Positions 48,888-64,000 of a DNA stretch of 64,000 nt are shown here, one piece after another. This stretch comes from a virus: positions 151,292-215,291 of IMG/VR virus record IMGVR_UViG_3300029908_000004, one strand, 5' to 3'. The stretch's first letter is position 1. Each line of letters opens with the position of its first letter. Both the position numbers and the translations under genes were made by a program. The notes beneath the pieces were generated by a model that was not told where the DNA came from, ran no database searches, and saw nothing but the letters and a program-made list of their open reading frames with translations.

Positions 48888-49443
48888 TATTCCCCTTGGG
48901 ATTCAGACACTTTATTAACCTAGCAAAATCAGATTCGGCTAATACAACAGTTCCTACATTAAATTTGTTTCTTATCACTAACGCTCCAAATAAAGTACTA
49001 GCTCGTTTGGAATCTTCTCCTACTTTAGCTAGTTCTGATAACCATATCACAGGATTCTCTCGTCCTGATTGGTGTTTAGTATCTAAAGTAATACAGCCTT
49101 GTGCTACATGATCTCCGTCTTTATTTACTCTACCAGAGTTACGTGTGCTGCGGATGATATTCTTTTCAGTTGTTTTTTCAGCAAGAGCAGCTTGGGCAGC
49201 CACCCTTTTGCGTATTGGGTCCGAGTTTTGCTTATCTCGTACCTTCTTCCAGTGGTCATCTCGTTTCTTCTGTAATCTTTCTTTCTCTAACACTGGATGC
49301 TTACGATTATTAGTCTTACGCGCTTGAGTAGTGGGCTCCCAACAATTAACAGTTAAATCTGATCCTTCTGGAGACAATTTACAAATAGAACACAACTGAT
49401 TGTCTCCAGCATTGGAGGGGGAATTAACACAATATTCTGCCAT
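48880..49443 (-). CDS. Cys-rich N-terminus plus PD-(D/E)XK-like core
   Basis: A 187-residue protein. The start at ATG 49443 lies one base after the recombinase stop; an ATG four codons earlier overlaps that gene. The N-terminus has cysteines in a possible zinc site (CVNSP...CSICK...CW). A central basic helical linker precedes SGRVNKDGDHVAQG and TLDTKHQSG, resembling the D...D-x-K active site of resolvase/VRR-type nucleases. It sits between RecA-like and primase genes, so a recombination or repair nuclease is plausible. Confidence 0.6.
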   Translation of the reverse strand: MAEYCVNSPSNAGDNQLCSICKLSPEGSDLTVNCWEPTTQARKTNNRKHPVLEKERLQKKRDDHWKKVRDKQNSDPIRKRVAAQAALAEKTTEKNIIRSTRNSGRVNKDGDHVAQGCITLDTKHQSGRENPVIWLSELAKVGEDSKRASTLFGALVIRNKFNVGTVVLAESDFARLIKCLNPKGNNE

Positions 49444-49444
49444 G

Positions 49445-50548
49445 TTACACGGCATTTTCTACAGGTACCTCGTTAACAATTTCTTCTTGGTCGTTTTCAA
49501 CTACTTCCTTAGGAGCCATAGCTGTTTTAATGGTTTCTAGGAAGTCTGGGTCTTCACACATAAGTTTGTAAAATTCAAGATCCCCTTGCAATTTTACATT
49601 TCCGAAGGAGAGCCAAGAACCACTCTTCTCTATGATTTTAGATTGCTTAGCGGTCTCAAATACATCCCAAATAGGACAGAATCCACGACCATTTATATAA
49701 GAAAGTAGTACATGCTTATAAGGAGCAGAGATCTTATTCTTTGCTGTGTATACGTCTATCTTTACACCGATGATCTCATCGTTCTTACCTTTTATCTTTT
49801 CGACCAATCGTAACTCTAACCTTATAGTAGCAAAGAATGGCATAGCGTTACCACCAGAGGTCTTATACCGTACTCCCTGAGGACTATACCCACCTATCTG
49901 TGGCAATGCTTGATTAATCCATAGGGCAGTAGCCCTTACATGAGTAAACTTACGAACGTGATCATACATAAGTTTACCTATACCACCCGGTTGTGCTGGG
50001 TCTGACGGGTCTCGTTCTAAATCTACTCTCTTTGCTAAAGCAGCCATTGAATCCACAATTACCAAATCACAAATTCTGGAGACAAGACCTACATAATTAA
50101 CTATCTTTTCTCCATTCATTGTTTCACCAGTTTCTGGGTCGTACCCCTTAGCTAGGTATACAGGATGTATACCTGACTCAAGAGTAGGATTCATAATATA
50201 ACCTAGCTCCTCTAAATATTCCTCTGTAATAGTGTCTTCTATATCTACAATAGTAACTAGTTTACCTAGTTTCTGCCACATAACTCCTATCTGTAGGGCT
50301 ATTGAAGTCTTACCTACTTCTGGGTCTTTAGAATAAATTTCTACACGTCTACTTAGTGGACACCCAGGCTTTGCACTATGTAGATTTTTATCTAGACGTG
50401 GGAGACCTGTTGTCAAGGTTTCCACAGTCATATCTACGCGGTCACATATCTTACGGAAGAACCCAGCTAAACCATTCTCAGCCAGTTCCTTTTCAAAATG
50501 GGAGTCTAGTTCAGGGTTTTCAATCTTCTTTTTACTTGTCTTTGACAT
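49445..50548 (-). CDS. RecA/UvsX-like recombinase
   Basis: A 367-residue strand-exchange protein. RecA landmarks visible: TTGLPRLDKNL, Walker A region YSKDPEVGKTS (residues 72-82), VDIEDTITEEYL, Walker B DLVIVDSMAAL, ALWINQ and KTSGGNAMPFFATIRLELR. The first glycine of the Walker A motif is lysine (K74), unlike GPESSGKT of RecA. The C-terminus is acidic (ENDQEEIVNEV), as in RecA. It acts in recombination-dependent replication and repair along with the neighbouring nucleases and primase-helicase. Confidence 0.9.
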   Translation of the reverse strand: MSKTSKKKIENPELDSHFEKELAENGLAGFFRKICDRVDMTVETLTTGLPRLDKNLHSAKPGCPLSRRVEIYSKDPEVGKTSIALQIGVMWQKLGKLVTIVDIEDTITEEYLEELGYIMNPTLESGIHPVYLAKGYDPETGETMNGEKIVNYVGLVSRICDLVIVDSMAALAKRVDLERDPSDPAQPGGIGKLMYDHVRKFTHVRATALWINQALPQIGGYSPQGVRYKTSGGNAMPFFATIRLELRLVEKIKGKNDEIIGVKIDVYTAKNKISAPYKHVLLSYINGRGFCPIWDVFETAKQSKIIEKSGSWLSFGNVKLQGDLEFYKLMCEDPDFLETIKTAMAPKEVVENDQEEIVNEVPVENAV

Positions 50549-50554
50549 TATATC

Positions 50555-50998
50555 CTAATTAAACTTTGTGCGACCGTTGAAACCATCGCCTTCAATACCT
50601 AATATCTTCTTACATAGATTCACACGGGAGTCTAATGATCTGATTAGCTCTTCCAAATATAACTTGATAGGAATGAAACCACTAGTCATCTTTCTCATGT
50701 ATGCTTCTTTATCAGCAGCCCCTACACCCTTACTTGAGGGCAATAGGAAGTCTGACGACTTCCCATGCTCAACAAATGCAGAGGATAATGACAAATACTG
50801 AGATACTCTATCTCTCCAAGATTCTACATAAGTCATATGTAGTTCGAGCTGTGGAACATCTTGGGTAAGAACCTGCATTTTCAGTTTATCTTGTAAAGGC
50901 TTTAACGTTGCCTTATATTCTGTCTCGAATTCTCCAAGAGCTTTGAACAAATCCTCTTCTTTGTTAATCTTTAATACATCTAAAATCGAATACAACAT
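50555..50998 (-). CDS. Helical hypothetical protein, 147 residues
   Basis: It is mostly alpha-helical with coiled-coil character (EFETEYKATLKPLQDKLKMQ) and lacks enzymatic motifs. It lies six bases before the recombinase gene and eight bases after the cysteine-cluster gene, within the recombination cluster, so a recombination mediator is a possible role. No family recognised. Confidence 0.6.
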   Translation of the reverse strand: MLYSILDVLKINKEEDLFKALGEFETEYKATLKPLQDKLKMQVLTQDVPQLELHMTYVESWRDRVSQYLSLSSAFVEHGKSSDFLLPSSKGVGAADKEAYMRKMTSGFIPIKLYLEELIRSLDSRVNLCKKILGIEGDGFNGRTKFN

Positions 50999-51005
50999 TA
51001 TATTC

Positions 51006-51356
51006 TTATTCCGTTTCTATATCCATCTGAGAAATATCGTAAAGCTGGTATCCCCAATTAGGGTTCTGTTTTGGTACACAGATAGACTTATAAGCACAAT
51101 ATAAACATTGCCAATCACCTATTCTATCTTTACCTAGTTTCTTCTTCTTCCAGTCTTGATATCTAGTCTTCCCTATTTCTCCACTGGCAGCTAAAGTCTC
51201 TACCTTAGTAGGAGAATAAGCCCATTCATACTCAGCCGGTGGAAGGAAACTGTCTGGTAGCAAACGAACTTCTGCTGCTAGCAGTTCTAAATAAGCAGCA
51301 TTCGCTGCTTTCTCTGTGTCATTTAGTTCCAAAGGTATGTTATTTTGATTATCCAT
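51006..51356 (-). CDS. Small protein carrying a C-terminal Fe-S type cysteine cluster (split nuclease half)
   Basis: A 116-residue protein. Near residue 85 it has DWQCLYCAYKSICVP, the C-x2-C-x5-C cluster that normally ends RecB/Cas4-type nucleases. The gene immediately upstream encodes the nuclease core with the matching first cysteine, in another frame, 14 bases away. The two proteins probably act as one split enzyme, the smaller completing the iron-sulfur site. A frameshift that would fuse them cannot be excluded. Confidence 0.65.
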   Translation of the reverse strand: MDNQNNIPLELNDTEKAANAAYLELLAAEVRLLPDSFLPPAEYEWAYSPTKVETLAASGEIGKTRYQDWKKKKLGKDRIGDWQCLYCAYKSICVPKQNPNWGYQLYDISQMDIETE

Positions 51357-51370
51357 AGATACAATTTTCT

Positions 51371-52261
51371 CTATTGTTGATCTCCTCTACCTCTAACTAG
51401 GTTCAAACTAGGAGGCGGTAGGATACCTTTTTCTGCTAGACGTCGCTCTGCTTCTTCTCTAGCCCTAAACCAGTAGTTCTGGAGAGTTCTATACCGTTCA
51501 TAAATATTTTCAACTGTGAATATCTTCCACATCTGTCCATCTATTACTGGGTAATGAGCACCATCAAAGTCTTCAGCGATACTGATAGTAAACTCAGTTC
51601 GGGCGCAATCATCTCTAGATATATAAATTAGTTTAGCACCTATCTCGCCGTCATTCATCTGTTCAACTATGTCTAAATTAGCTTCTATACGATTTCTAGA
51701 TCTTGCGCTTGAAGCTCTATCCTCTAAGCCCTCTTTAATAAGTGCTTTTAATCGTGCGCCGTTCTTGACTTCGTTTAGATACATGACAAGCTGCATTACA
51801 TTCTCTATCTTAGGCTTGCCATTCTTTATATCCTTACCAGCCATCCAGCCATAGTACGTTTTACATTCACAAATCCAACCTGTCTTAGTGATTGGGTCTA
51901 CAACTACCAAGTCTAATTCTAATGGCATATAGAACTCTTCTACGAAGGTTCTTACCCCGTTAGCAGCGAATATTGTAGGTGAAGTGGCTCTAGACAGGTC
52001 TACTAACGTACCTTCTATAAGACGTCCAGTAACCCAACGCCATGCACCAATAGGATCAACTTGGTTTGTAATTGGGGCACCTGTCATACGTAAGTAAGCT
52101 TTACGTCTACAGGTACCATAAATATTTGATACAGTTTTATCGATACGGTCTGCTGAGGCTTCGGAAGGCCAGATAGCAGGGGTATTAGAACTCCTTGCAT
52201 CGTGGGATTCTTGAACTACTAGAGCTGTATCGATGTATGGAAACAAACGAAATTCTGCCAT
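51371..52261 (-). CDS. RecB/Cas4-like PD-(D/E)XK exonuclease core
   Basis: A 296-residue nuclease. Motifs: YGTCRRKAYLRMTG (first Fe-S type cysteine), ELDLVVVDPITK with the metal-binding aspartate, WICECKTYYGW with E-x-K, and VMQLVMYL (the QxxxY helix). This layout is that of Cas4/RecB/AddB nucleases, 5'-3' exonucleases in recombination. The usual C-terminal cysteine triad is absent here and is encoded by the next gene. An extended -10 element and a palindrome lie just upstream. Confidence 0.8.
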   Translation of the reverse strand: MAEFRLFPYIDTALVVQESHDARSSNTPAIWPSEASADRIDKTVSNIYGTCRRKAYLRMTGAPITNQVDPIGAWRWVTGRLIEGTLVDLSRATSPTIFAANGVRTFVEEFYMPLELDLVVVDPITKTGWICECKTYYGWMAGKDIKNGKPKIENVMQLVMYLNEVKNGARLKALIKEGLEDRASSARSRNRIEANLDIVEQMNDGEIGAKLIYISRDDCARTEFTISIAEDFDGAHYPVIDGQMWKIFTVENIYERYRTLQNYWFRAREEAERRLAEKGILPPPSLNLVRGRGDQQ

Positions 52262-52947: not shown

Positions 52948-54963
52948 TTAATCATCGTCTCCGAACTCACCACCCTTGCTACGTATCCCAAGTTCTCTAC
53001 GCAAGGCAGCTTTGTCGGCGGCTAGTGCCCTCCATTCAGGTGGGCAATAACCTAGGTGGTCAACGTAGATAAGCGATAGCTTCGTCATACGTTCAACTTC
53101 TTCAGTGTTAGGTAGGATATCGTCCATAGCCTGATTCCAGTCTGCTATTGACATGGAATAGTCTGGTTTACCATCTGACTTTACTCTACCAGCAAACGCT
53201 GCATTGTCTAACGCTTCTTTCAGAACAACTTCAATCTCAGCACCAGTCCAAACACGTTTGCTATCATACAACAGACGACCTAAACCATTATCAGCTGTCT
53301 TCTCTGTAGCTGCTACTTCCTTAGCAAACTTTACACCATGCTTACGAAGTAACGCAGCCAAGATGTCAAGCCTTCCCTTACTATCACCCTTCTGAGGGGG
53401 TAGCGCTGGCACCTTGGCATCAAAACGACCAGACCTAATCAGAGCACCGTCAAGTAAATCTGGACGGTTAGAAGCACCGATTACTACAACCCTACCAGTT
53501 CTAGATTCATCTGACAACCAAGTCATGATAGAGTTAAATACTCTAGCGGAAGTTCCAGAATCTCCAGCAGAGGTCCTACCAGAACTTAGTACTGAATCCA
53601 TTTCATCTAGGAATACAATACAAGGAGCAGCAGAGTCTACAGCTTCCAAGAACTTACGTGTCTTCTGTTCGGTTTCACCTACAATTCCACCGAATAGACG
53701 ATCCAAGTGTCCAATCATAAAGTTCATCTTGGCTTCCTTGGCTAGAGCTTTGGCAATGACAGTTTTACCTGTACCCGGGGGTCCAGTCATCAACATACCA
53801 CGGGTACATAGACGAGCATTACCTTGTTGTAGTGGAATGATAACTTTACGCTGGAAATATCTCTTCAAGTGTTCGTGCCCACCAATTTGTTCAAAGCCAT
53901 ACTCAGGCTCAAAGAACTCAACCAAGCCTTGATATTCATCTTCCAAAGCTCTCTGCTTCTGTTCACGAACCAAACGGAAGTCGATAGCTTCTCCAGTGAG
54001 CCAAGATTTCATGATTACAAATTCCATCTGTCTTCTTGACATACCAGCAGATTGAACAGCAAATTGATGGAGATCAAATCCAGTAGCCAAGTTCACCTTG
54101 GAGACTTCATTACTACCTATAACCATAGGTTTGCCCTTAGCAGCTACACTATTTTCAATGGTTCTGCTGAAGTTGGTTAGCCACTCCTCACGTTCTGTGA
54201 TTGTTGGCTTTCCAATAAGAATAGTGGAGATACCAACACCGCCTCCACGAAGGGACTCGTGGATTTCAGATAAGTGACGTGTCATAATAATGATTCTATT
54301 ACGGTTACCTAACTGTTCATCCCTCGCCCAGTTACGGATATGAACAATCTGTGGGCGATCGGCATATAATTGTGCTATATCCCCCTGAGGAAACAAAGAA
54401 TCACCATCGGTAAACAACACAGTCAACAACAACTCTGGTTGAGTAGCCTGATTATTCATTATCTTCATCTCGTTAGAACGATGAATTTCTTTATTAGCTA
54501 TGAACCAGCGTTGTAAAACTAAACAACAATTTTCTATCTGGGTAGGTTTATCCCAACCAGCCGGCCAGTTCTCTACCGTTTCCCCATAGAAGGACTTCAT
54601 AGTGTCTACCCAAGCAGTGTGACTATTCTTGTTAGCAAACTCTAGTCCAGAGGACAGGTTAAAAGAAGCTAATATCCTAGTGGTATTACGATTTGTTTTT
54701 ACTTCCTGCTCATCTTGTATACCACGACCCACTTTGTCAGACACACTGCCTCTAATTTCACGAGCCACATTATCGTCCATAGCGATCGCTATAGTACGAT
54801 CAATTGGTTGTCTGGCTCCTGTGTTGTCACAATAATCGTTGATGTTACCATGAACGATGAATACGTGGGCAATCTTGGATCTATAATCACTTTTGATCGT
54901 CTTGATGAACTCCGGGATTGGTTGCTGTTCCGGTTGCTGCTTCTTCACTGTCGCAAATGCCAT
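52948..54963 (-). CDS. Ycf46-like AAA+ ATPase
   Basis: A 671-residue protein. The C-terminal half is a classical AAA module: MTGPPGTGKT (about residues 391-400), CIVFLDEMDSV, GASNRPDLLDGALIRSGRFD with sensor 1 and arginine finger, and a helical lid. The N-terminal half (HVFIVHGNINDY; LLTVLFTDGDSL; RNRIIIMTRHLSEI) looks like a degenerate second ATPase domain, the layout of Ycf46 proteins of cyanobacteria and plastids. It probably remodels protein complexes. DUF1257 (Ycf35-like) and DUF2997 genes follow upstream in the same transcript direction, suggesting a shared system. Confidence 0.85.
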   Translation of the reverse strand: MAFATVKKQQPEQQPIPEFIKTIKSDYRSKIAHVFIVHGNINDYCDNTGARQPIDRTIAIAMDDNVAREIRGSVSDKVGRGIQDEQEVKTNRNTTRILASFNLSSGLEFANKNSHTAWVDTMKSFYGETVENWPAGWDKPTQIENCCLVLQRWFIANKEIHRSNEMKIMNNQATQPELLLTVLFTDGDSLFPQGDIAQLYADRPQIVHIRNWARDEQLGNRNRIIIMTRHLSEIHESLRGGGVGISTILIGKPTITEREEWLTNFSRTIENSVAAKGKPMVIGSNEVSKVNLATGFDLHQFAVQSAGMSRRQMEFVIMKSWLTGEAIDFRLVREQKQRALEDEYQGLVEFFEPEYGFEQIGGHEHLKRYFQRKVIIPLQQGNARLCTRGMLMTGPPGTGKTVIAKALAKEAKMNFMIGHLDRLFGGIVGETEQKTRKFLEAVDSAAPCIVFLDEMDSVLSSGRTSAGDSGTSARVFNSIMTWLSDESRTGRVVVIGASNRPDLLDGALIRSGRFDAKVPALPPQKGDSKGRLDILAALLRKHGVKFAKEVAATEKTADNGLGRLLYDSKRVWTGAEIEVVLKEALDNAAFAGRVKSDGKPDYSMSIADWNQAMDDILPNTEEVERMTKLSLIYVDHLGYCPPEWRALAADKAALRRELGIRSKGGEFGDDD

Positions 54964-55225
54964 ACTTTATTATCTCCATTTCTATAGGCCATGTTTCTCC
55001 AGGACCATTTGTTGAGGGACACCCTGTTAGTAGTAGTTCTCTTGCTATGTATAAGCCTAAATAACGAAAGACAGCTTGTTTCTTCTGATCCGGGTCTGTT
55101 AGATCCATATCAGCAGAAGCTTGCTGCCAAACTAAAGAGTCATCTTCCTCTATGCGTTGCATATCAAGACTAATAGAAGCTGCAAGAGTCATCCTAACTT
55201 GTATAATATCTTCATCTGAACGCAT
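54887..55225 (-). CDS. Small acidic helical protein overlapping the Ycf46-like gene
   Basis: A 112-residue protein (DEDIIQVRMTLAASISLDMQ at the start). Its last 25 codons overlap the start of the AAA+ gene by 77 bases in another frame. The ATPase gene has its own GGAG site inside this reading frame. No family recognised; the overlap suggests coupled expression with the ATPase. Confidence 0.55.
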   Translation of the reverse strand: MRSDEDIIQVRMTLAASISLDMQRIEEDDSLVWQQASADMDLTDPDQKKQAVFRYLGLYIARELLLTGCPSTNGPGETWPIEMEIIKYGICDSEEAATGTATNPGVHQDDQK

Positions 55226-55243
55226 ACCGCCACCTAACTTATA

Positions 55244-55450
55244 TTATTTCTTCACTGGTTTCATTTTACTAAGCATCTTTAATAGCCTATTACGGCCAAT
55301 TTTGGTATGGTAAAGATTACCATGTTCTGGTTGGACATATAAATCAATGCTATTCTTTTCTATGTAATACCACCCTTTACCAGTAGTTATAACTGTACCT
55401 TTTGGTGTTGGTAAGTCATGTGGAAGTCCATCTTTAACATATTTCTTCAT
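55244..55450 (-). CDS. Small basic protein, 68 residues
   Basis: A Lys-rich protein with an SH3-like beta pattern (PKGTVITTGKGWYYIEKNSI) and a basic helical end (IGRNRLLKMLSKMKPVKK). It could bind nucleic acid. Its first 17 bases overlap the membrane-protein gene. Function unknown. Confidence 0.55.
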   Translation of the reverse strand: MKKYVKDGLPHDLPTPKGTVITTGKGWYYIEKNSIDLYVQPEHGNLYHTKIGRNRLLKMLSKMKPVKK

Positions 55451-55649
55451 CTTCTGTTTCCTTATCTTTCTCTAATTCTAAATAATGCATTATCCAAAGC
55501 AAAAATAAAGCCAAGTAGAAACATCCTACACTGAGGAAGAACTCCCAAAGATGACCACCTAGTCTTGTGAAGTCCGCTCCAGCGATACCAGCAATCATAC
55601 TACATATTAAAATAATTATAATTACTAACTGTTCTGTGTATATATTCAT
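55434..55649 (-). CDS. Two-span small membrane protein
   Basis: A 71-residue protein with two hydrophobic segments (LVIIIILICSMIAGIAGA and FFLSVGCFYLALFLLWIM) and an acidic cytoplasmic-type tail (EKDKETEDEE). It could be a holin-like or membrane-modifying phage protein, but nothing specific identifies it. Confidence 0.6.
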   Translation of the reverse strand: MNIYTEQLVIIIILICSMIAGIAGADFTRLGGHLWEFFLSVGCFYLALFLLWIMHYLELEKDKETEDEEIC

Positions 55650-55676
55650 ATTGTACCTACATTTAACAATTAATAT

Positions 55677-55970
55677 TTATAGCTGTGTCATACCGTGTAA
55701 TGCTTCTTCTACGCGTGCTCGCCATTCTTTTTGTGGGAATGAATGAGCATATAGGAAAGCTATCAGTTCACCAGCACTAAAGCCACCACGGCATTCTCCT
55801 GTAACGAGGGCTGCTTGTTCTCCATACACTGCGCAATATACTTCATAAGCTCGTATAGTTACCGTTTGTGGGCAGCGAGCAGACTGATGTACCACTCTTC
55901 GCGTTTGTACCGGGTGTACTGGTACATCCAATTTCATACAACATTGCCCATGACACTCATAATCACTCAT
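55677..55970 (-). CDS. Cysteine-containing hypothetical protein, 97 residues
   Basis: The N-terminus has CHGQCC followed later by RCPQT and VYCAVYG, possible metal ligands. The C-terminal half is a helical region (FSAGELIAFLYAHSFP; RARVEEAL). It is slightly richer in GC than its left neighbours and lies just before the GC-rich island. No family recognised. Confidence 0.55.
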   Translation of the reverse strand: MSDYECHGQCCMKLDVPVHPVQTRRVVHQSARCPQTVTIRAYEVYCAVYGEQAALVTGECRGGFSAGELIAFLYAHSFPQKEWRARVEEALHGMTQL

Positions 55971-55981
55971 TATATTTCCCT

Positions 55982-56215
55982 TTACAAGAAGTTTGGGTCA
56001 ATTGGGTCGAATTTGTCATAGTTATTATCATCATCTGAGTCTTTTCGTCCGTCAGGCTTTGTAGGTTTAGCTACTCGTGGCTTAGCGATTGGAGTTGAGC
56101 AATATTTCAGACCATTCTCATGAACCCAAATTCCCCACATACCTTTCTCTTTAGAAATAAGACTCTTACAAAAGTCGCATAAGCCATAATTTTTGTTTTT
56201 AACTACTGATGCCAT
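55982..56215 (-). CDS. Small zinc-binding protein with acidic tail
   Basis: A 77-residue protein. The first half carries CDFCKSLISKEKGMWGIWVH and a following YCS, a likely zinc-ribbon remnant. The second half is a Lys/Pro linker and an Asp-rich tail (DSDDDNNYDKFDPIDP). Resembles small phage proteins with a treble-clef finger. Function unknown. Confidence 0.55.
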   Translation of the reverse strand: MASVVKNKNYGLCDFCKSLISKEKGMWGIWVHENGLKYCSTPIAKPRVAKPTKPDGRKDSDDDNNYDKFDPIDPNFL

Positions 56216-56241
56216 AGTTTATCCCTTCACGTCCTCGTGCT

Positions 56242-56655
56242 TCACTTCGTCCCTCCATTGGCTTTCCCGGCAAGCGCCGCCCGCGCAATCTCGTTTCCCC
56301 TGCTATTTCCGAAGTCCGGTTCGTTGCCAAGACGCGCCAGCTTATCTAATGCCGCCTCCAACTCTACGACGCGGGCCTTGAGCGCGGTATTCTCCTCCCT
56401 CACTCCTGCGAGTGCCGTTGCATTGCGAACCTTCTCTAAATCTCGCCACTGTTCCCATGCCGCCACGCGGGCCTTGAGCGTGGTGTTCTCGGCCTCCAGC
56501 GGGGCGGCGATATGGGCAGCGTAGGCGGCGTGGTCATGATAGAGTACGAAAGAACCTTCGGGATGCTCGTAAGCTTGTATTTCATCGCCGCCTTTGAATA
56601 CCAGAACACGGTATCGTTTGATCGGCTCCGCTGGCGTTACCTTCGGGGCAGTCAT
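56242..56655 (-). CDS. Coiled-coil prophage-type protein, 137 residues
   Basis: The N-terminal half is beta-rich (IKRYRVLVFKGGDEIQAYEH; GSFVLYHDHAAYAAH). A long coiled coil follows (LEAENTTLKARVAAWEQW, REENTALKARVVELEAAL). The layout is common among accessory genes in phages of proteobacteria. Its ATG overlaps the stop of the upstream gene as ATGA. Function unknown. Confidence 0.6.
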   Translation of the reverse strand: MTAPKVTPAEPIKRYRVLVFKGGDEIQAYEHPEGSFVLYHDHAAYAAHIAAPLEAENTTLKARVAAWEQWRDLEKVRNATALAGVREENTALKARVVELEAALDKLARLGNEPDFGNSRGNEIARAALAGKANGGTK

Positions 56656-57677
56656 CTTGTTTCCTCTTTTCCAATATGCATACCCAGCGCAATCCGTGAT
56701 CCTCTATGTCGTTCGTTGGCATATGTCCTCGGTTGAATCTGGAAGTCAATCGGAAGTCCTGTAATCTTTGACAGCCGTTCCGAAATAGCAACAGTCAGCA
56801 GCAGCCACTTCGCATCCTGTTCCCAGCATCTACCAGCGCCGGGAAACTCTGTGGCAAACTGTTCGTCCGACATGATGAACCGCACATCTACATCACGCCA
56901 GTCAGGACGATCAAGGGATGATCCGACAAGGTAGCACCCCCAACCGCCGAATGCCTCGGTGAGCTGGCGGCACGCCGTTTCGAGTGCAAAGATGGCCGGA
57001 GCACCAACGTAGTTACATTTCTTGCGCGGTGCTACTTCGGGGTCAGTCGTCTCCGGTGCGGGACTGCCATGTGCAGCACACGGCAACTTTCCGTGGCAGC
57101 AATCGCAAGTCATTGGCGGCGTTACCTTCGGGTCAGGCTGCACGATCGGCTCCGGCGCGGGCTGGTTGGCCTCTGCCGGATCATGTTCGACAATACGTTT
57201 CAGGATGTTAGATGCATCGAGGTGCGCGTAAGCGTGCTTTGGGCTGGCCTCCGACTTCTTTATTCCACGCGCTGGGTCAGGCATGTTCTCTTCTGCGAAC
57301 CGCTTGTCGTGCTCCGGATTATTTCCTCCGAAGATGTCTTCGTAAGGCGCGTCCGGTATCTTCGTCGCAATCTCATATTCCGCAAGGCATTCCGGTGAGT
57401 GACTGCGCCCATCCGTGCAGCCACAATTCTTTCCTTTGCAGGGCGGTAGTGTTTGATGTATGGCCTCCGCTGTTATAAACCGATCACCCTTGCTGCGTAC
57501 AGGTTCGGCGGAATCCCATACAAACCCGAGTTCCAGTGCAACGGACTGCCACGCTCTGTTAGCGTTCTCCTGCGGACTAGATGGCTCCCCGCACTGGACA
57601 GCGATGTACGGAACAGGTTTACTCGCGCCAAGGATGCGATCCAATTGCTGCTGTGATAGCTCAAATTCCTGTCTCAT
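56652..57677 (-). CDS. Chimeric protein with C-terminal nucleotidyltransferase-like domain
   Basis: A 341-residue protein. Start taken at ATG 57677 (AGAGGA site five bases upstream, ATGA overlap). The N-terminus (YIAVQCGEPSSPQENANRAW) resembles a small phage domain. The middle has cysteine clusters (CKGKNCGCTDG; CDCCHGKLPCAAHG). The C-terminus has GCYLVGSSLDRPDWRDVDVR with the G-S...D-x-D pattern of the polymerase-beta-type nucleotidyltransferase fold, followed by a helical part with PIDFQIQP. Modules from different sources appear joined. The nucleotide substrate is unknown. Confidence 0.65.
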   Translation of the reverse strand: MRQEFELSQQQLDRILGASKPVPYIAVQCGEPSSPQENANRAWQSVALELGFVWDSAEPVRSKGDRFITAEAIHQTLPPCKGKNCGCTDGRSHSPECLAEYEIATKIPDAPYEDIFGGNNPEHDKRFAEENMPDPARGIKKSEASPKHAYAHLDASNILKRIVEHDPAEANQPAPEPIVQPDPKVTPPMTCDCCHGKLPCAAHGSPAPETTDPEVAPRKKCNYVGAPAIFALETACRQLTEAFGGWGCYLVGSSLDRPDWRDVDVRFIMSDEQFATEFPGAGRCWEQDAKWLLLTVAISERLSKITGLPIDFQIQPRTYANERHRGSRIALGMHIGKEETR

Positions 57678-57982
57678 GAATTCCTCTTTCCTGCCGCGTC
57701 CGGTAGCTTCGGCAGAAACTTTGAGCACAACATCCCGCTAGGATGATGCACCGGAAGCCCCGGCCCAAGAATCGAACTGAATGGAGGCGTGATCGTTTTC
57801 TCCCCACGGTCGCACGCTTCACACGATACGTCGGGCGCGTCCGGTATCTTCGGGATACTGCCGCCAAGCTTGCTGGTGGTAACCGATGGTTCAGGTACGC
57901 ACCCACATAGAAAATTCCCGTTGATCGCGGCTTGCCCGCACATCGGACAATGAGAAAAGCTCGTGTAATGTTCGACGTTCAT
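57674..57982 (-). CDS. Zinc-ribbon protein of the GC-rich island
   Basis: A 102-residue protein with HCPMCGQAAINGNFLCGC near the start and a second pair in VSCEACDRGEKTITP. These clusters probably bind one or two zinc ions. Linkers are Pro/Ser-rich. Starts and stops overlap the neighbours by ATGA. No enzymatic motif. Confidence 0.6.
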   Translation of the reverse strand: MNVEHYTSFSHCPMCGQAAINGNFLCGCVPEPSVTTSKLGGSIPKIPDAPDVSCEACDRGEKTITPPFSSILGPGLPVHHPSGMLCSKFLPKLPDAAGKRNS

Positions 57983-58149
57983 AATTTCCCTTCCCTTATC
58001 CGTTGGATCAAACTCGGCTTAGGCTCTGGAGGTTTCTCGTTCTCGTTAATCCAGAATCCACAACGGGCGCACATCAGCTTGCAATCTCCCCCATACTTCA
58101 GGATTCGCTTCTTTGGTGGGCATGAACACCAAATTGGATCGTAACTCAT
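57979..58149 (-). CDS. Small zinc-ribbon protein, 56 residues
   Basis: A short gene between two ATGA overlaps (58146-58149 and 57979-57982), preceded by a purine-rich ribosome site (GGAAGAAGGG). The product has WCSCPPKKR, then CKLMCARCGFW, five cysteines able to form a zinc knuckle, and a basic end. The conserved coupling on both sides argues it is expressed. Confidence 0.68.
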   Translation of the reverse strand: MSYDPIWCSCPPKKRILKYGGDCKLMCARCGFWINENEKPPEPKPSLIQRIREGKL

Positions 58150-58553
58150 CCCTTCTTCCCTTCTGCCGCGTCAAGGGCGGCGAGGATTGCGTCAGCGGCT
58201 TCCTTTTTCAAGCTCCTACTACCTTGGAAAAAATACTGCAACTTATTAAGCAATATCTCCTGCCTCTTATTGACTGGCACAAGGGAATCATTGCGGCAGG
58301 CAACAAAATCACGAAGAATCGTGGTGGCCAAGCCTCCATACTGCTTACCTGTTGTGGCTTCTATCGTTTCGACAGCGTCGCCTATTTCCTCCGGTGTTGG
58401 TGGCTCCAGTAGCTTGCCGGGTAGGTGGTCGGCTGCGGTTTTAATAACGATACGCCAGCCTGACCACTCAGGACTGTATGAGTATCCCGCTTCGTTCAGT
58501 GCTTTGATACTCGCTTGTTTAGCTGCTTGAAATACCTCTTCTGGTAGATTCAT
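58146..58553 (-). CDS. Hypothetical protein, 135 residues
   Basis: An alpha-helical protein (PEEVFQAAKQASIKALNEAG; AADAILAALDAAEGKKG) with a proline-rich central part. Overlaps both neighbours by ATGA. Resembles accessory prophage genes in composition. No family recognised. Confidence 0.6.
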   Translation of the reverse strand: MNLPEEVFQAAKQASIKALNEAGYSYSPEWSGWRIVIKTAADHLPGKLLEPPTPEEIGDAVETIEATTGKQYGGLATTILRDFVACRNDSLVPVNKRQEILLNKLQYFFQGSRSLKKEAADAILAALDAAEGKKG

Positions 58554-59014
58554 TTAGTCTTCTTCTCCCCTTCGTGGGCAGCGGGCAAGCGCTGTAGTCT
58601 ATCAATCTCTGCTGCGATGAGTGCACCCGCTTTCACGAGATTGCGGATAGGGTCAGGCGACGGCTTCCACCACTCATCACTCCATTTTGGGGGCCAGAAA
58701 ATCTCGTTTAATGGAGCGCGCTCTGGGTGCAGACAACCGTTCGCGCACAAATAACACTTGGCAACAGCGGTCAATTCGCAATCACTGTGTTCATCGTCAT
58801 GTTCTGGCGTCCAACCCTCCACTGTGATCTGCCGTTGCCGCTCCGCCGCGATTAGAGCCGCTCCGTTTGGAGTTGATAATGTTTGCCCAACTCTACTAGG
58901 GTGAGGAGCTTGACATTCACAATAATTATTTTGACAGCCTAATGCCCATACACTTTCATCGTGTGCTGAATGATCACCATTCTTACAACTATCACAGATT
59001 GTTGGGTTACTCAT
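58550..59014 (-). CDS. Chimeric zinc-finger plus prophage-type ERQRQ-domain protein
   Basis: A 154-residue protein. The first ~45 residues have cysteines and histidines (CDSCKNGDHSAHDES; CQNNYCECQAPH) and are encoded by AT-rich phage-like DNA. The rest is a domain widespread in prophages (AALIAAERQRQITVEGWTPE; NLVKAGALIAAEIDRLQRL) in GC-rich DNA. The composition changes near base 58870-58880, close to the domain border, so the gene spans the island edge. Function unknown. TAATG overlap upstream, ATGA downstream. Confidence 0.68.
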   Translation of the reverse strand: MSNPTICDSCKNGDHSAHDESVWALGCQNNYCECQAPHPSRVGQTLSTPNGAALIAAERQRQITVEGWTPEHDDEHSDCELTAVAKCYLCANGCLHPERAPLNEIFWPPKWSDEWWKPSPDPIRNLVKAGALIAAEIDRLQRLPAAHEGEKKTK

Positions 59015-59721
59015 TATACAGGTACCAAGTTATCGCCCGGATCGTCTGAATTCTTAGCATTGGTGTGCTGTGCTAATAATTGATCCATTGTAGTTGGCTT
59101 ACTTGGGGCGAACTCTTCCAAGAACTTCTCCGGTGGGAAGCCAGTTATCTGTGTTAATGCATCCTCATCAATGATAACTTCCATGATTTGAGGCTGAAGG
59201 TCCTTCTCTGAATACTTATCAGTGAAGAACACTACTTCTTGGTTCAACGAACCACGAAGTGGGTCAGAGGTAGCTCTAACTAACTGGTTGTACCTGCCAA
59301 ATACACCCCAATCCAATAAGCTCTTGATAGCACACCATAATTCTGGGCTACCAGCCTTCCAATCCCCAGTTTCTGCTGACTTCCACTTGAATTTACCAGT
59401 CTCTAATTCTTTTATGGTGTAACCACTGAATGAACCTATAGTTAGATCTGGTCGCTCTCTTCTAATAGCATCACATAACAAGTACAAGAACTGTGCTTGC
59501 TGGAAAGGTTCGCCGCCAGAGAAGGTAATACCTTCTACGTCTTTAAGACCCTTTACCCAGTCAATAATCTCTGATAGATAAGTTTCTTTCTTGTTATCGA
59601 AAGCATGAGTGTCAGGATTCCAACATCCCGGACACCCAAGTGAACAACCAGCGAACCAAAGAACGGCCCGATTCCCTGGGCCGTTGGCAGTTGACGAATC
59701 AATTTTACTGTAGACTAACAT
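59014..59721 (-). CDS. NrdG-like radical SAM protein (4Fe-4S)
   Basis: A 235-residue protein. Start taken at ATG 59721, inside the end of the upstream gene, with a purine-rich site. It has the radical SAM CxxxCxxC cluster C26, C30, C33 (AGCSLGCPGCWNP), NGPG near the N-terminus, SGGEP at 68-72, SGYTIKEL and RGSLNQEVVF, a set matching NrdG, the activase of anaerobic ribonucleotide reductase. No NrdD gene is seen in the window. It neighbours zinc-ribbon, DUF2997 and DUF1257 genes, so it could serve that module instead of nucleotide reduction. Confidence 0.82.
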   Translation of the reverse strand: MLVYSKIDSSTANGPGNRAVLWFAGCSLGCPGCWNPDTHAFDNKKETYLSEIIDWVKGLKDVEGITFSGGEPFQQAQFLYLLCDAIRRERPDLTIGSFSGYTIKELETGKFKWKSAETGDWKAGSPELWCAIKSLLDWGVFGRYNQLVRATSDPLRGSLNQEVVFFTDKYSEKDLQPQIMEVIIDEDALTQITGFPPEKFLEEFAPSKPTTMDQLLAQHTNAKNSDDPGDNLVPV

Positions 59722-60035
59722 GGTTTGCCCTTCCCTGTATGTTTCGATAGCTCTTCTGCTAGCTCGGCTATTTTGAGATGTAGTTCCCACTGATCCATCG
59801 AAGTTATCAGGAAGTTGATATTGCAATTGTGACATTCTATAGCCCCCAAGGTTATTTCTACTTCCTCTGAGATTGTTTTACTAATACTTTTGCCATCAAC
59901 AACTTCCTGTTGGATATCTCTGCGTATTTCGCCTCGCAAAGTAAGAGTGTGCCCCTTACATTTTGGACATTCTATTGGGTCCGTCAGGACTGTTGGAGGA
60001 ACTAATTCTTCGCGAACTAATACGACTTTATCCAT
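59715..60035 (-). CDS. Zinc-ribbon protein, 106 residues
   Basis: Two CxxC pairs, CPKC (C23, C26) and CHNC (C68, C71), frame a beta-rich core. A helical tail (QWELHLKIAELAEELSKH) follows. It overlaps the NrdG-like gene by seven bases and precedes it, suggesting a partner or electron/metal adaptor. No family name is recognised. Confidence 0.65.
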   Translation of the reverse strand: MDKVVLVREELVPPTVLTDPIECPKCKGHTLTLRGEIRRDIQQEVVDGKSISKTISEEVEITLGAIECHNCNINFLITSMDQWELHLKIAELAEELSKHTGKGKPC

Positions 60036-60038
60036 TGT

Positions 60039-60233
60039 CTACTTTCCTACATTCAACTTGTTTACGTTGGGTTGTTCCTTGTGATAATCTGATTTGATAG
60101 TCTCAGATTTCACCTTACCCATAGCTTCGAAAGCCTTCGCGACGTCCTTACAGCCCTTACCCTTAAAGCCCTCTAAATCCAGACTGAAGTTACCATCACC
60201 ATCTATTTCAACTGTCACAATTTTATCCGCCAT
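60039..60233 (-). CDS. DUF2997 family protein
   Basis: A 64-residue protein matching the DUF2997 pattern: an ITV.I...G strand pair (IVTVEIDGDGNFSLDLEGF), then FKGKGCKDVAKAFEAMGK with the conserved G-F-K-G...C turn and helix. The family has no proven function. It sits between the DUF1257 pair and the zinc-ribbon and NrdG-like genes, an arrangement I recall from bacterial genomes. An AAGGAG site precedes the ATG. Confidence 0.82.
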   Translation of the reverse strand: MADKIVTVEIDGDGNFSLDLEGFKGKGCKDVAKAFEAMGKVKSETIKSDYHKEQPNVNKLNVGK

Positions 60234-60252
60234 GTCTTTTCTCCTTATTATA

Positions 60253-60274
60253 GGGTATCCTAGATTAGATACCC
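60253..60274 (-). other. Hairpin between DUF1257 and DUF2997 genes
   Basis: GGGTATC (60253-60259) and GATACCC (60268-60274) pair around an 8-base loop spanning the stop of the DUF1257 gene. It is directly followed on the - strand by TATAATAAGGAG, so it may adjust readthrough or mark a processing site; TATAAT here could also serve as a -10 box. Confidence 0.4.
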
Positions 60275-60696
60275 ACCTTGAATGTTAGTTTTATAGCACC
60301 TTGTGGGGTTACAGTTCTCCCCTGAAAGCTAAGATTAGAACCATTAGCTATCTTTCTAGCATGTTTCTCAGCGTACTTCTGTTTCAACTGTTTCATCCAA
60401 GCTTCGTTGTGAAAACTTGAATCAAACTGAGAGATGATAGCTTTGAAGTTGCCATCAGGACCCCTCTTAAAACCAATATCATTAGACGCATTACCAACTT
60501 CCTTACGTCTAATTATTATCTCTGCCGTATCTTTCCTCTTCTCACCGTGGTAGCCCTCTAAATTCTGAGCCTCTGCGTGTGATTCTGGATTAGCTTGTTC
60601 ACCTTCTTTAATTCCCCTGAATTTCATTTCCTTTAAGGAATCAACAAGGCATTCTTGATTTGACATATTTGTATCTAGTGTTCTGTAAGCAGACAT
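60265..60696 (-). CDS. DUF1257 (Ycf35-like) family protein, copy 1
   Basis: A 143-residue protein with DUF1257 layout: MSAYRT then a helix (LVDSLKEMKF), a basic/acidic middle with AEIIIRRKEVGN and DIGFKRGPDG, and a helix YAEKHARKIANGSNLSFQG. It is paralogous to the protein encoded directly upstream (60761-61171). Ycf35 proteins occur in cyanobacteria and plastids, with unclear function. A hairpin separates it from its paralogue. Confidence 0.82.
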   Translation of the reverse strand: MSAYRTLDTNMSNQECLVDSLKEMKFRGIKEGEQANPESHAEAQNLEGYHGEKRKDTAEIIIRRKEVGNASNDIGFKRGPDGNFKAIISQFDSSFHNEAWMKQLKQKYAEKHARKIANGSNLSFQGRTVTPQGAIKLTFKVGI

Positions 60697-60726
60697 TTTA
60701 TCCTTCTACTATCTATTATAAAATAG

Positions 60727-60753
60727 TGGGGCTATACATTGCATATAGCCCCA
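60727..60753 (-). terminator. Strong hairpin between the two DUF1257 genes
   Basis: TGGGGCTATA (60727-60736) pairs with TATAGCCCCA (60744-60753), a perfect 10-bp stem with a 7-base loop, 7 bases after the upstream gene's stop. The following - strand bases are AT-rich but not a clean T run. It could be a partial terminator or RNA stabiliser setting the ratio of the two proteins. Confidence 0.6.
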
Positions 60754-60760
60754 CAACTGA

Positions 60761-61171
60761 TTATACGTGGCGGAATTGTAGTTGCTGAACGGGCTTTCCG
60801 TTCTTAGTTACCTGGCGATAACCAATGAATTCCATGCCAGCGTTCTTGGCAATTTTCTTTGCCTTAGCTACAGCATAGGCTGGAACTACCTGCTTGGTGA
60901 TAGCAGATAGCTTGTGATCTGACTTACGTAGAACGTACTCATCACCAACTACATTGTACTTGCCGTCCTTGCCCATCGAGAATCCGATATCCCCACCATC
61001 GCCGATATCTTCCTTCTTCAGGATGATCTCAGCCTTGTAGGTCTCAGAACCGTGACCACGAACGCTTTCCTTCTTGTCATTAACCTCTGGCTTGTATCCC
61101 AAAGACTTCAAGGCGTCACAAAGAGTCACCTTGTCATTCATTTCTGTGTTTTGCGTGCGGAAGCAACTCAA
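60761..61171 (-). CDS. DUF1257 (Ycf35-like) family protein, copy 2, TTG start
   Basis: A 136-residue protein. Start chosen at TTG 61171, because AGGAG (61183-61179) lies seven bases before it. The resulting N-terminus (MSCFRTQNTEMN, with initiator Met) then aligns with MSAYRTLDTNMS of copy 1. The open frame continues 38 codons upstream without ribosome site. DUF1257 features: LCDALKSLGY, AEIILKKEDIG, DIGFSMGKDGKYNVV and AKKIAKNAGMEFIGY. Together with copy 1 it could form a heteromer. Confidence 0.82.
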   Translation of the reverse strand: MSCFRTQNTEMNDKVTLCDALKSLGYKPEVNDKKESVRGHGSETYKAEIILKKEDIGDGGDIGFSMGKDGKYNVVGDEYVLRKSDHKLSAITKQVVPAYAVAKAKKIAKNAGMEFIGYRQVTKNGKPVQQLQFRHV

Positions 61172-61339: not shown

Positions 61340-62020
61340 CTACTTACCAGTAGCTTTTTTCTTATATTGCTCTAATCTGGGTTCAACATAGAAGTTAAAC
61401 CCAGCTACTAGCCTACCACGGTCAAGGATAATAACTGGTGGAGCTTCACCTATCGCTGGGACTAGTCGACCTATCGTATCATCGTCTCCCTTTATAATCT
61501 GATCGATGTTTGGTAGATTGTATAAATTCAGTTTAGCAGATTGCACCATAGAAAACAAGCAGAAATCCTTTATTAAGAGAGATTGTTTAACACTGAAGAT
61601 ACCAGTCTTTGGACAACACCTCTCTCCAACTTCGAACAATCCCTCTCCAGTGAGTTGTCTTTCTGCTAATGCTCTAACTCGCATAATATGGTTCTTCAGA
61701 CGAATTTTCTGTGACCCACCACCTGCTGGGTGAAAGCTGACTTCATAGCAGCTTTCCCCATAATCAGATTTGTTATTAGGCAAGGTTTTTAACAACTCTC
61801 CTGCATTCTTTGCTCCCTGAGATAAGACGTCTGTCTCTTCGTAAGGCCAAAGATTTATCGGGGTAGGGGTTTTGAATAGAGCTTGCATCACATTTTTACA
61901 TACAGGACAAGTATGCCCGTATACTAATGGGAATTCTAAGTTCTTTACCTCTCCCTTAAAACTATTTCTTTTCGTAAGAATTAGTTTTGGAGTAGTTTGG
62001 TTATTAGTTAGTTGTATCAT
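61340..62020 (-). CDS. Hypothetical protein with CPVC motif, 226 residues
   Basis: A mixed alpha/beta protein with HTCPVCKNV (residues about 36-44), a second pair in GERCCPKTG, a Gly-rich SFHPAGGGSQKI and a C-terminal APPVIILDRGRLV strand. The cysteines could bind zinc. It overlaps the helicase gene by one base (TAATG), which suggests it works with the helicase. No family recognised. Confidence 0.6.
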   Translation of the reverse strand: MIQLTNNQTTPKLILTKRNSFKGEVKNLEFPLVYGHTCPVCKNVMQALFKTPTPINLWPYEETDVLSQGAKNAGELLKTLPNNKSDYGESCYEVSFHPAGGGSQKIRLKNHIMRVRALAERQLTGEGLFEVGERCCPKTGIFSVKQSLLIKDFCLFSMVQSAKLNLYNLPNIDQIIKGDDDTIGRLVPAIGEAPPVIILDRGRLVAGFNFYVEPRLEQYKKKATGK

Positions 62021-64000
62021 TAATCCATCCTATCTTCAAAGTCAGATAAGTTTAGTTCTGGTACGAACATTGTGTCACCACCAGCTTCACGCATATAGGT
62101 TTGAATAGATAGTTCCTCTTCTAGAATTCTCTCTACGAACCAGTGGATATCTACTTCTCTTGCGCGTCGACTACCAACTTTACGATCTAACGCTTGTTCA
62201 GCAGCAACCATCTTACTATAAAACACATTGAAGATATGTTCGTCTAAAGAGTTCTTTGACAACATGATATAAATTTCACAAGTTCTCTCCCTAGTCTGTG
62301 GAGCCATTACACGGCTCCAAGCTTGGGTTTGGAACGCTGGACTCCATAGCAAATCACAGCAAATAACTGTGTCTGCGGCGGACAAGTCTACACCCTCACG
62401 GATTGCTCTTGTACCAGCGATAAAGACCTTTACGTTTTTATCACTTTGGAATTTATCAAAGTTCTCTTTTCTTGCTTCATCATCCCAAGATGTTTGGAAT
62501 TTGATTATTTGCTCTGGTTTCAACAGAGGGGTTTTACCAGAGGATAGATTTTTGTACACTGATTCATGCATAGCACGGAAATCACTAAGGATAAGGACCT
62601 TACCTTCTTCCTCAATTTTATCACTTACTATTTGACGAATCTGCGACATCTTTCCACCGCCAGCGACTCCTTTATATATCTCCCTACCAAGCTTCTCGTT
62701 CAACATCTCTGGGCAAGTAGAAGCAATTTTCATAGTAGTCATTTGACTTATGACTAAGGTAGAATTGATCTGTTGATTCTTCTTATCCGCCTCACTAGCC
62801 ATCTTCTCAAAGGTTTTCTTAAAATCTTTGATAGAAGACAGCATTAGTGCCGCCTGATATGGATCCATTGGACAGACTACCTTCTGTACATCTGCTTTTG
62901 GCATCATTCTACCATTAGCTACGAGAGTTTTCTTAAATAGAGGATCTTCGTAGTTACGACGAATGATTTTACTAGCCATGAAGGTCCAGAATTCTGGTGG
63001 ATTCTTCAGGAATGGAACACGTTTTCTAACAAGCTTCGTTAGTTGAACTTGTTTACCATTCTTATCGGTTTCCACACCTGCTGAACGTTCTAATGTAACA
63101 GAATCACAATACTTATAGTCGAACTCTTTTTCACCTTCTCCCCTAAAGTAAGGGAATTGTGAGCTTGGTCCGTTCTGTGTATAATGCAATGGCCAATAAG
63201 CGTCCATTGGTGAATTAGAGATTAAAGTTCCAGTTAATCCTATTTTCCTACGAGATCTTAGATTAAATGTAGCTTTAGAACTTTGTGTAAGATCGTCCTT
63301 ACAGTTATGTATTTCATCTGGTATAACTAATGTATACTTCTTCATTAGTCTCTTGTATCTACCGGGTGTCCAATTACCATCAGCTACATGACACTTAGGA
63401 CAATAACGTCCTTTTATCCTCCAGTCATAACAGTTTGCATGAGCAGCTAATTCATAATCTACATACCCACCAGTATGTTTGATCAACTTATCAGATTGCC
63501 ATGCACTACCAATATTTTCCCTATTGTCTGTAACATAGGAACATTTCTTGTTAAGACATCTATAGCCTCTAGACTTAGTCCATTCCATCTTTTCAGAAGA
63601 TTCTGATTTAACAAACCTTTGTAATGGTTGCTTACAGTGTGGACATAGATTCTCTAGTTTTATAGCAGTCCATAGCTTAGTAATTTTATCCTTCACATCA
63701 CGAGTGGATGGCTTTAGCTTACCAGCCCAATCTTGACGTGCTTTCCAACAAGGGTCGTCTTCCTGTCTTAACCACGTATAAGAATATAAATGGTACTTAG
63801 CTTTACTCTTTGTATCTGCCCAATTACGAATGGATATGAAATCTTTACCTTCTTTAAAACCTAATCGTTCGAATTCCTTCTCCCAGAAGATTCTGGCATT
63901 GCCCGGGGCTACAATAGCTACTTTCTTGCTACCAACTAATTCAGCATAAGCAATAGCAAAAGATGTCTTAGCCATACGCATAAGATAAGCATTGATAACA
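62020..64000 (-). CDS. SNF2-type SF2 helicase, 5' truncated
   Basis: About 659 residues are visible; the frame stays open to the window edge, so the start is outside. Helicase motifs: motif I AYLMRMAKTSFAIA, motif Ia VAIVAPGN, motif II LVIPDEIHNC, motif III GLTGTLISNS, motif V AGTRAIREGVDL, motif VI QTQAWSRVMAP. Motif I has alanine where glycine of GKT is expected. Zinc-type cysteines are inserted between motifs I and II (CPHCKQPL, CLNKKCSY, RYCPKCHVA). It likely works in replication restart or recombination. Confidence 0.85.
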   Translation of the reverse strand, partial: VINAYLMRMAKTSFAIAYAELVGSKKVAIVAPGNARIFWEKEFERLGFKEGKDFISIRNWADTKSKAKYHLYSYTWLRQEDDPCWKARQDWAGKLKPSTRDVKDKITKLWTAIKLENLCPHCKQPLQRFVKSESSEKMEWTKSRGYRCLNKKCSYVTDNRENIGSAWQSDKLIKHTGGYVDYELAAHANCYDWRIKGRYCPKCHVADGNWTPGRYKRLMKKYTLVIPDEIHNCKDDLTQSSKATFNLRSRRKIGLTGTLISNSPMDAYWPLHYTQNGPSSQFPYFRGEGEKEFDYKYCDSVTLERSAGVETDKNGKQVQLTKLVRKRVPFLKNPPEFWTFMASKIIRRNYEDPLFKKTLVANGRMMPKADVQKVVCPMDPYQAALMLSSIKDFKKTFEKMASEADKKNQQINSTLVISQMTTMKIASTCPEMLNEKLGREIYKGVAGGGKMSQIRQIVSDKIEEEGKVLILSDFRAMHESVYKNLSSGKTPLLKPEQIIKFQTSWDDEARKENFDKFQSDKNVKVFIAGTRAIREGVDLSAADTVICCDLLWSPAFQTQAWSRVMAPQTRERTCEIYIMLSKNSLDEHIFNVFYSKMVAAEQALDRKVGSRRAREVDIHWFVERILEEELSIQTYMREAGGDTMFVPELNLSDFEDRMD

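Follow-up and report, generated by a model that had tools for sequence, protein, structure and literature searches.

Analysis of the last 64 kb (64,000 bases, referred to here as the window) of the 215,291-base virus record IMGVR_UViG_3300029908_000004 revealed a gene block in which a Ycf46-related AAA+ ATPase is accompanied by two DUF1257 proteins, a DUF2997 protein, a zinc-ribbon-like protein and an NrdG-like radical-SAM protein. Recurrent linkage of the three families shows AAA, DUF1257 and DUF2997 to be the core of a module, and synteny shows the NrdG-like, zinc-ribbon-like and g112 proteins to be additions of this jumbo-phage group. We read the module as an AAA+ remodelling machine whose dedicated partners are DUF1257 and DUF2997 and which serves phage DNA metabolism, and we give this reading a probability of about one half. 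The module itself is well supported; its mechanism is inferred.

All of the named genes were found on one strand (the minus strand), as the original prediction had claimed. Curated Pfam cut-offs were exceeded by the AAA+ ATPase, the NrdG-like radical-SAM protein, the DUF2997 protein and the two DUF1257 proteins (Table 1). A profile search of the record located DUF1257 at two places. The predicted end of the block at 61171 was also correct: DUF1257-A starts there with a TTG codon preceded by the Shine-Dalgarno sequence AGGAGA, and its homologues in the phage contigs L017 and L159 start at the same residue. For the radical-SAM gene a start at 59721 is likelier than one at 59835, as it coincides with the start of the L017 homologue and does away with a 121-base overlap. 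The zinc-ribbon-like protein has relatives in contigs L150 and L157 (phmmer) and matched no family above cut-off in Pfam; since it combines the CPKC...CHNC motif with only weak Trm112-like matches, its name is a reading from the motif.

The trio recurred in other viruses. Ycf46-like AAA, DUF1257 and DUF2997 genes were found together in viral contigs L147, L151, L152, L153, L155, L182 and L183; AAA, a RecA-like gene, DUF2997 and an NrdG-like gene stand consecutively in L163, and the 479-kb viral contig L154 carries DUF1257 and DUF2997. By sequence reading, GroEL/GroES-like chaperonin open reading frames (ORFs) adjoin the latter pair in L154 (6440-8460). When viral contigs were scanned with the single sequences of DUF1257-A, the AAA protein and the NrdG-like protein, a near-identical contig alone was recovered; the wider relatives came from alignment-based scans of IMG/VR. 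Relatives in cultured phages emerged by a different route. Searches by tblastn with the DUF1257 proteins of the window or of L152 matched no phage record, and cultured relatives were reached only through a fold search of BFVD with the AlphaFold2 model of DUF1257-B (predicted local distance difference test score 91). Its single significant viral match was A0A7S5REL3 (147 amino acids, aa), an accession in a range that we take to belong to a Rhizobium phage; its identity with the DUF1257 of Rhizobium phage RHph_I4 was not confirmed. In RHph_I4, which was also matched by the phage AAA protein, the ATPase, DUF1257 (147 aa) and DUF2997 genes lie together ahead of DnaB and PolI. The RHph_I4 DUF1257 matched 21 phage records by tblastn, from Rhizobium, Pseudomonas, Rhodobacter and Aeromonas, and in every such record with the AAA position seen, AAA lies roughly 1-3 kb upstream of DUF1257 on the same strand. 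DUF2997 follows DUF1257 in PA_L9, RcDurkin and HJ05, and the Pfam DUF2997 cut-off was exceeded in the cultured-phage loci W01-W04. Two unrelated phage groups carry the module beside DnaB/PolI or PolA/UvsX/primase genes.

The trio is probably also present in an archaeal virus. In Acidianus tailed spindle virus (ATSV), gp08 is a Ycf46-like AAA protein, gp09 is a weak DUF1257 match (E 1e-5) and gp10 is a DUF2997 protein with FQGKSC (E 5e-9), the last two E-values coming from a small search of a few dozen neighbouring proteins. The case is probable rather than certain because gp10 is not matched by the Pfam DUF2997 profile on its own. Acidianus two-tailed virus (ATV) p529 (PMC4124505) was considered as a studied relative of gp08 and rejected, as no annotated DUF1257 or DUF2997 was seen beside it in the ATV feature table, which was read by eye only. 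A common fourth component of the trio, DUF3150-like and approximately 200-350 aa long, was likewise rejected: the relationship is confined to subsets (L147/L152/L153 with L151; L155 with Catdawg gp95; Rhizobium/Aeromonas with Rhodobacter and Pseudomonas), and these proteins showed no link to g226 or to a 355-aa protein of Nostoc. A protein of about 300-350 aa stands beside the viral trio in L147, L151, L152, L153 and L155; the L155 protein has a relative in Mycobacterium phage Catdawg (L174), gp95, which lies near a Ycf46-like AAA gene.

Five divergent phage lineages (including L017/L018, L150, L157 and L159) retain most of one gene order near replication genes: PolA, HU, SNF2, g226, one or two DUF1257, DUF2997, zinc ribbon, NrdG-like, g112 and AAA, followed by a 296-aa gene, g147, RecA/UvsX, g191 and a primase-helicase. 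The block thus includes g112 and g226 as well. L017 and L018 show about 98% similarity across most of their length and gave no blastn match to the DNA of the window. The shared order has exceptions. The L150 contig starts at SNF2, has a 205-aa gene at the g226 position, and places DUF2997 and the zinc ribbon before a single DUF1257; in L159 one DUF1257 was detected and the zinc ribbon was not; and HU was not detected in L157. A further contig, L162, has DUF1257, DUF2997 and NrdG-like genes at its end. Two HNH-endonuclease-like ORFs lie inside the L017 cassette (11259-12089 and 13813-14379) and are missing from the corresponding places in L018, a pattern like that of homing endonucleases. In the window, the AAA gene is separated by approximately 4 kb from the rest of the block. 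Most genes at 56242-59014 have a GC content of 0.47-0.59, compared with 0.39-0.47 for the block and 0.41 for the genome, and in L157 the NrdG-like, g112 and AAA genes are contiguous, without intervening genes. On both grounds this gap is a probable lineage-specific insertion, and its genes look like a foreign accessory insertion.

Linkage of the same families was also evident in cyanobacteria. The original prediction was to fall if these families co-occurred with Ycf46-like ATPases no more often than by chance; instead, DUF1257 was found within the fetched flanks of 10/21 Ycf46-like loci and 0/9 FtsH-type loci in the same six genomes. These genomes were chosen for having DUF1257, four of the ten positive loci were seeds and six were not, and the linkage samples are not fully independent. 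Ycf46 occurs with Ycf35-type DUF1257 in 5/6 of the cyanobacterial genomes searched, and DUF1257 adjoins DUF2997 in 30/30 of the best-scoring cyanobacterial DUF2997 loci. Within a 14-genome control set, DUF1257 and DUF2997 were matched only in Synechococcus. Cyanobacterial plasmids and Nostoc carry a cassette of the 355-aa protein, DUF1257, DUF2997 and AAA, often with WGR, and Leptolyngbyaceae and relatives have AAA with one or two DUF1257. Several copies of the Nostoc cassette (L019-L075) were seen in a single genome, many of them broken and lying on plasmids or short contigs, a pattern that would fit spread by a mobile element. DUF1257-B shares 33-39% identity with the DUF1257 proteins of cyanobacterial loci L077 and L079-L084, where AAA stands beside DUF1257 in all except L079. 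A one-to-one pairing of copies A and B with the two DUF1257 genes of cyanobacteria L083/L084 was rejected, since copy A falls among sequences of phages and Nostoc (weak support). Taken together, the neighbourhood survey was positive in cyanobacteria, in tailed phages and probably in an archaeal virus, in agreement with the conserved ATPase, DUF1257 and DUF2997 set that had been proposed.

An alignment of 22 DUF2997 sequences revealed invariant G25 and C28 and a GxxGxxC motif in nearly all; the Gly and Cys residues of this motif are also present in ATSV gp10 and in L163. An apparent DUF2997 domain fusion in a 557-aa frame of L145 was discarded as an out-of-frame artefact, the true gene being 66 aa. 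Walker A and Walker B are intact in the phage ATPase, and the AAA proteins of the window and L017 are 52% identical. By profile, the phage ATPase matches Ycf46 over the AAA core plus about 130-150 residues upstream, and FtsH matches over the core only. The description of this protein as Ycf46-like is thus apt in a broad sense only: the first ~220 residues of the cassette ATPases do not align with Ycf46, and the proper label, judged from alignment and phylogeny, is Ycf46-related rather than Ycf46. What we take to be the textbook Ycf46 among the cyanobacterial paralogues was picked by start sequence and length.

The NrdG-like protein belongs to the radical SAM superfamily (Radical_SAM 35.3 bits against a cut-off of 29.5; Fer4_12 88.2 against 22), with its CX3CX2C motif in the form CSLGCPGC. 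Its best named profile was NrdG TIGR02491 (E 6.7e-24), at 84.6 bits and below the equivalog cut-off of 126.1. Neither NrdD (PF13597) nor a glycyl-radical domain (PF01228) was found in the near-complete genome, which encodes a large subunit of ribonucleotide reductase (RNR; an 851-aa frame at record positions 8095-9771, minus strand). A class I small subunit was not found in this genome, which suggests a class II enzyme. As NrdD and glycyl-radical domains are missing and another RNR is present, a role as anaerobic-RNR activase is improbable for the NrdG-like protein. Nine phage lineages with an NrdG-like protein and DUF1257 or DUF2997 all lack NrdD, and the two records with NrdD both lack DUF1257 and DUF2997. 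Among records reached via the NrdG query only, the split was 5 versus 2 (exact test P ~0.05), several of them being fragments; the association of NrdD-free NrdG-like proteins with DUF1257/DUF2997 is no more than suggestive. No Fer4_12 radical-SAM protein was present in PA_L9, RcDurkin, HJ05, RHph_I4 or ATSV, all of which have the trio, and the NrdG-like gene therefore lies outside the core of the module. ATV (NC_007409) also has an annotated radical-SAM protein, gp44, at 22197-23102.

In the mechanism that we favour, the AAA+ protein would form a ring, as expected for its family, and DUF1257 (present here as duplicate copies A and B) and DUF2997 may act as its adaptors, regulatory subunits or obligate clients. 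ATP-driven remodelling would then assemble, disassemble or unfold a component of the phage DNA-metabolism complexes, with the polymerase, SNF2 helicase, UvsX and primase-helicase as candidates, and would not be directed at host defence. The original prediction spoke of an ATPase-substrate system; DUF1257 as the substrate is one option, with an adaptor or co-subunit role equally likely. Our overall figure divides unevenly between the parts of this proposal: we have high confidence in a functional unit and much lower confidence in the client. Several observations weigh against the remodelling-machine proposal. It builds on the linkage and the intact Walker motifs, and the interaction, the ATPase activity and the client are all predicted; a place next to replication genes says little about function. 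A fold search of DUF1257 against the PDB returned nothing with E < 0.3, and thus neither a solved structural relative nor a relative of known function, and the structure model of DUF2997 was poor and unusable. In the phylogenetic tree the five cassette ATPases fall into a separate clade (support 100/99) across a supported branch from every Ycf46 type, a placement that is tentative because of long branches and midpoint rooting. Finally, the phenotypes reported for fed7 in cyanobacteria concern stress and iron (PMC4284462).

Those phenotypes, and the duf2997-ycf35-fed7 operon in which the gene lies, would fit Fe-S or redox maturation, in which a client cofactor is loaded or repaired by DUF2997 with its near-invariant GxxGxxC motif, the ATPase and a 4Fe-4S protein (NrdG-like here, Fed7 in cyanobacteria). 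The invariant Gly and Cys of DUF2997 and the company of NrdD-free NrdG-like proteins in nine viral lineages agree with this; we nevertheless consider it unlikely, given the trio-bearing viruses that have no NrdG-like gene, and none of the genes in the block was seen to encode an Fe-S assembly protein. The redox dependence that had been suggested is accordingly weak, as the motif, the enzyme and the operon are no more than suggestive. It is similarly doubtful that the radical-SAM protein is an ordinary NrdD activase for a host class III RNR whose proximity to the trio has no functional meaning. The TIGR02491 match and the canonical CX3CX2C motif fit such an enzyme; the shortfall in bit score, the lack of NrdD or a glycyl-radical domain in a near-complete genome with a different RNR, and a cassette place held in five lineages speak against it. 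A more elaborate scheme would make AAA, DUF1257 and DUF2997 an ancient machine common to cyanobacteria, plastids, tailed phages and the spindle viruses of archaea; in large phages the NrdD-free NrdG-like enzyme would place a radical or another modification, needed by the ATPase, on the DUF2997 GxxGxxC loop (or on DUF1257). We regard this as a long shot; if true, it would represent a new radical-modified protein-remodelling system.

The block had been proposed to serve host takeover or defence evasion; in such a machine the ATPase, guided by DUF1257/DUF2997, would unfold or inactivate host proteins. In principle AAA+ unfoldases are capable of this, and many viruses carry the module, but the same trio is found on cyanobacterial chromosomes and is therefore not a virus-only weapon. 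Nothing in our data pointed to this role: defence-like matches were generic AAA/helicase similarity below cut-off only (the defence library PADLOC was not searched), and placement of the module among replication and recombination genes favours phage DNA metabolism. A counter-defence machine thus seems improbable. We hold it very unlikely that the genes are a photosynthesis-related auxiliary metabolic set taken from a cyanobacterial host. The families take their names from plastids and cyanobacteria, and Synechococcus alone was positive in the control set; against this, phages of Pseudomonas, Rhizobium, Rhodobacter and Aeromonas have the trio, as an archaeal virus probably does, the phage AAA forms its own clade, and no photosynthesis gene was among the families found in the window, where no gene-by-gene search for them was made.

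The source virus is a tailed phage, with genes for a baseplate wedge, head decoration, a UvsX-like recombinase and a primase/DnaB-type helicase (PHROG) and an SNF2 helicase (Pfam). Contig L011 (IMGVR 3300031524_001640) is identical to the window end and continues, in reverse orientation, into the first 7,251 bases of the record, with only about 34 bases between window end and record start at the join. Because L011 bridges both record ends, the record closes to a circle and represents a near-complete genome, so that absences in it are informative. A PolA-type polymerase lies upstream, as seen on L011. It is divided between two ORFs (L011:1682-6005; L017:1263-4397), with other ORFs separating the exonuclease-like and polymerase parts; in L011 an HNH-type ORF lies between the two parts on the opposite strand. 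The 296-aa gene of the flank (51371-52261) is nuclease-like by eye only, and gave no match in Pfam, PHROG or NCBIfam searches.

Table 1. Genes of the block and its flanks, in window coordinates.
Feature	Position	Strand	Evidence
DUF1257 copy A	60761..61171 (longer ORF to 61285)	minus	Pfam DUF1257 E 1e-10, 42.2 bits, cut-off 22.2
DUF1257 copy B	60265..60696	minus	Pfam DUF1257 E 1.9e-11, 44.6 bits, cut-off 22.2
DUF2997, GxxGxxC motif	60039..60233	minus	Pfam E 5.2e-8, 33.1 bits, cut-off 24.1
Zinc-ribbon-like protein, 106 aa, two CxxC pairs	59715..60035	minus	CPKC...CHNC motif in sequence
NrdG-like radical-SAM protein	annotated ORF 59014-59835, start probably 59721	minus	Fer4_12 E 7.7e-25, Radical_SAM E 1.6e-8
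Higher-GC stretch between NrdG-like gene and g112/AAA, probable lineage-specific insertion	56242..59014	minus	GC; L157 comparison
g112, small protein directly upstream of AAA gene	54887..55225	minus	same position in all five cassette lineages
AAA+ ATPase, Ycf46-related	52948..54963	minus	Pfam AAA E 4.8e-34; Walker A GPPGTGKT, Walker B IVFLDE
g226, conserved Cys-containing protein, between SNF2 and DUF1257-A	61340..62020	minus	relatives in L017, L157, L159
SNF2-type helicase	62020..64000	minus	Pfam Helicase_C + SNF2-rel_dom; cut by window end; full ORF 951 aa in L011
Replication/recombination flank, conserved	46233..52261	minus	PHROG matches; order retained in relatives
Flank contents: 296-aa gene, g116, g147, UvsX/RecA-like recombinase, g191, primase-helicase	recombinase 49445-50548; primase-helicase 46233-48887

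Parts of this picture are already known, namely the cyanobacterial duf2997-ycf35-fed7 operon and, in the record of a single Rhizobium phage, RHph_I4, the annotation of both small proteins with the DUF names. Our literature search found no paper on the viral module; most subscription papers lay outside its coverage, so an earlier description is possible. Relative to the literature found, the viral distribution of the module and its expanded jumbo-phage version appear to be new. They would define a viral AAA+ module near replication genes, and place the ycf35/ycf46 families in cultured phages (Rhizobium L338C, Rhodobacter RcDurkin, Pseudomonas PA_L9, Aeromonas HJ05), with a probable further case in an archaeal virus. 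As the trio is present in laboratory-grown phages, its joint function can be tested by phage genetics and biochemistry.

Several known systems are close to the block. One viral arrangement is that of RHph_I4/L338C, PA_L9, RcDurkin and HJ05 (AAA, a protein of ~200 aa, DUF1257, DUF2997), which share the trio on one strand near replication genes; these phages differ in having a single DUF1257 and an AAA closer to true Ycf46 (tested for Rhizobium), and RHph_I4, PA_L9, RcDurkin and HJ05 have no Fer4_12 radical-SAM protein, unlike the phage of the window. ATSV gp08-gp10 present AAA, DUF1257-like and DUF2997-like proteins in the same order, in an archaeal virus and with a weak gp09 match. The ycf35 and ycf46 genes are plastid genes of unknown function, treated as a conserved hypothetical family without function analysis in PMC5940233. 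Ycf46 with adjacent Ycf35-type DUF1257 in cyanobacteria and plastids resembles the phage pair in the AAA core, the ~130-150 preceding residues and the adjacent DUF1257; in contrast to chromosomal Ycf46, the phage ATPase has another N-terminal region and a clade of its own, and DUF2997 and the NrdG-like gene sit in the phage block, not beside chromosomal Ycf46. Synechocystis cluster g, the duf2997-ycf35-fed7 operon (PMC4284462), likewise has adjacent DUF2997 and DUF1257 and a 4Fe-4S protein, but with a ferredoxin instead of a radical-SAM protein, a single DUF1257 and no AAA in the operon. NrdG, the anaerobic RNR activase, shares the Fer4_12/radical-SAM fold family and CX3CX2C motif with the phage protein, which scores below the NrdG cut-off in a genome without NrdD. 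Finally, ATV p618-p892, a MoxR AAA+ with a VWA partner (PMC4124505), also pairs a viral AAA+ protein with a dedicated partner; the AAA family differs and no VWA protein was found here, so the likeness is one of analogy, not membership.

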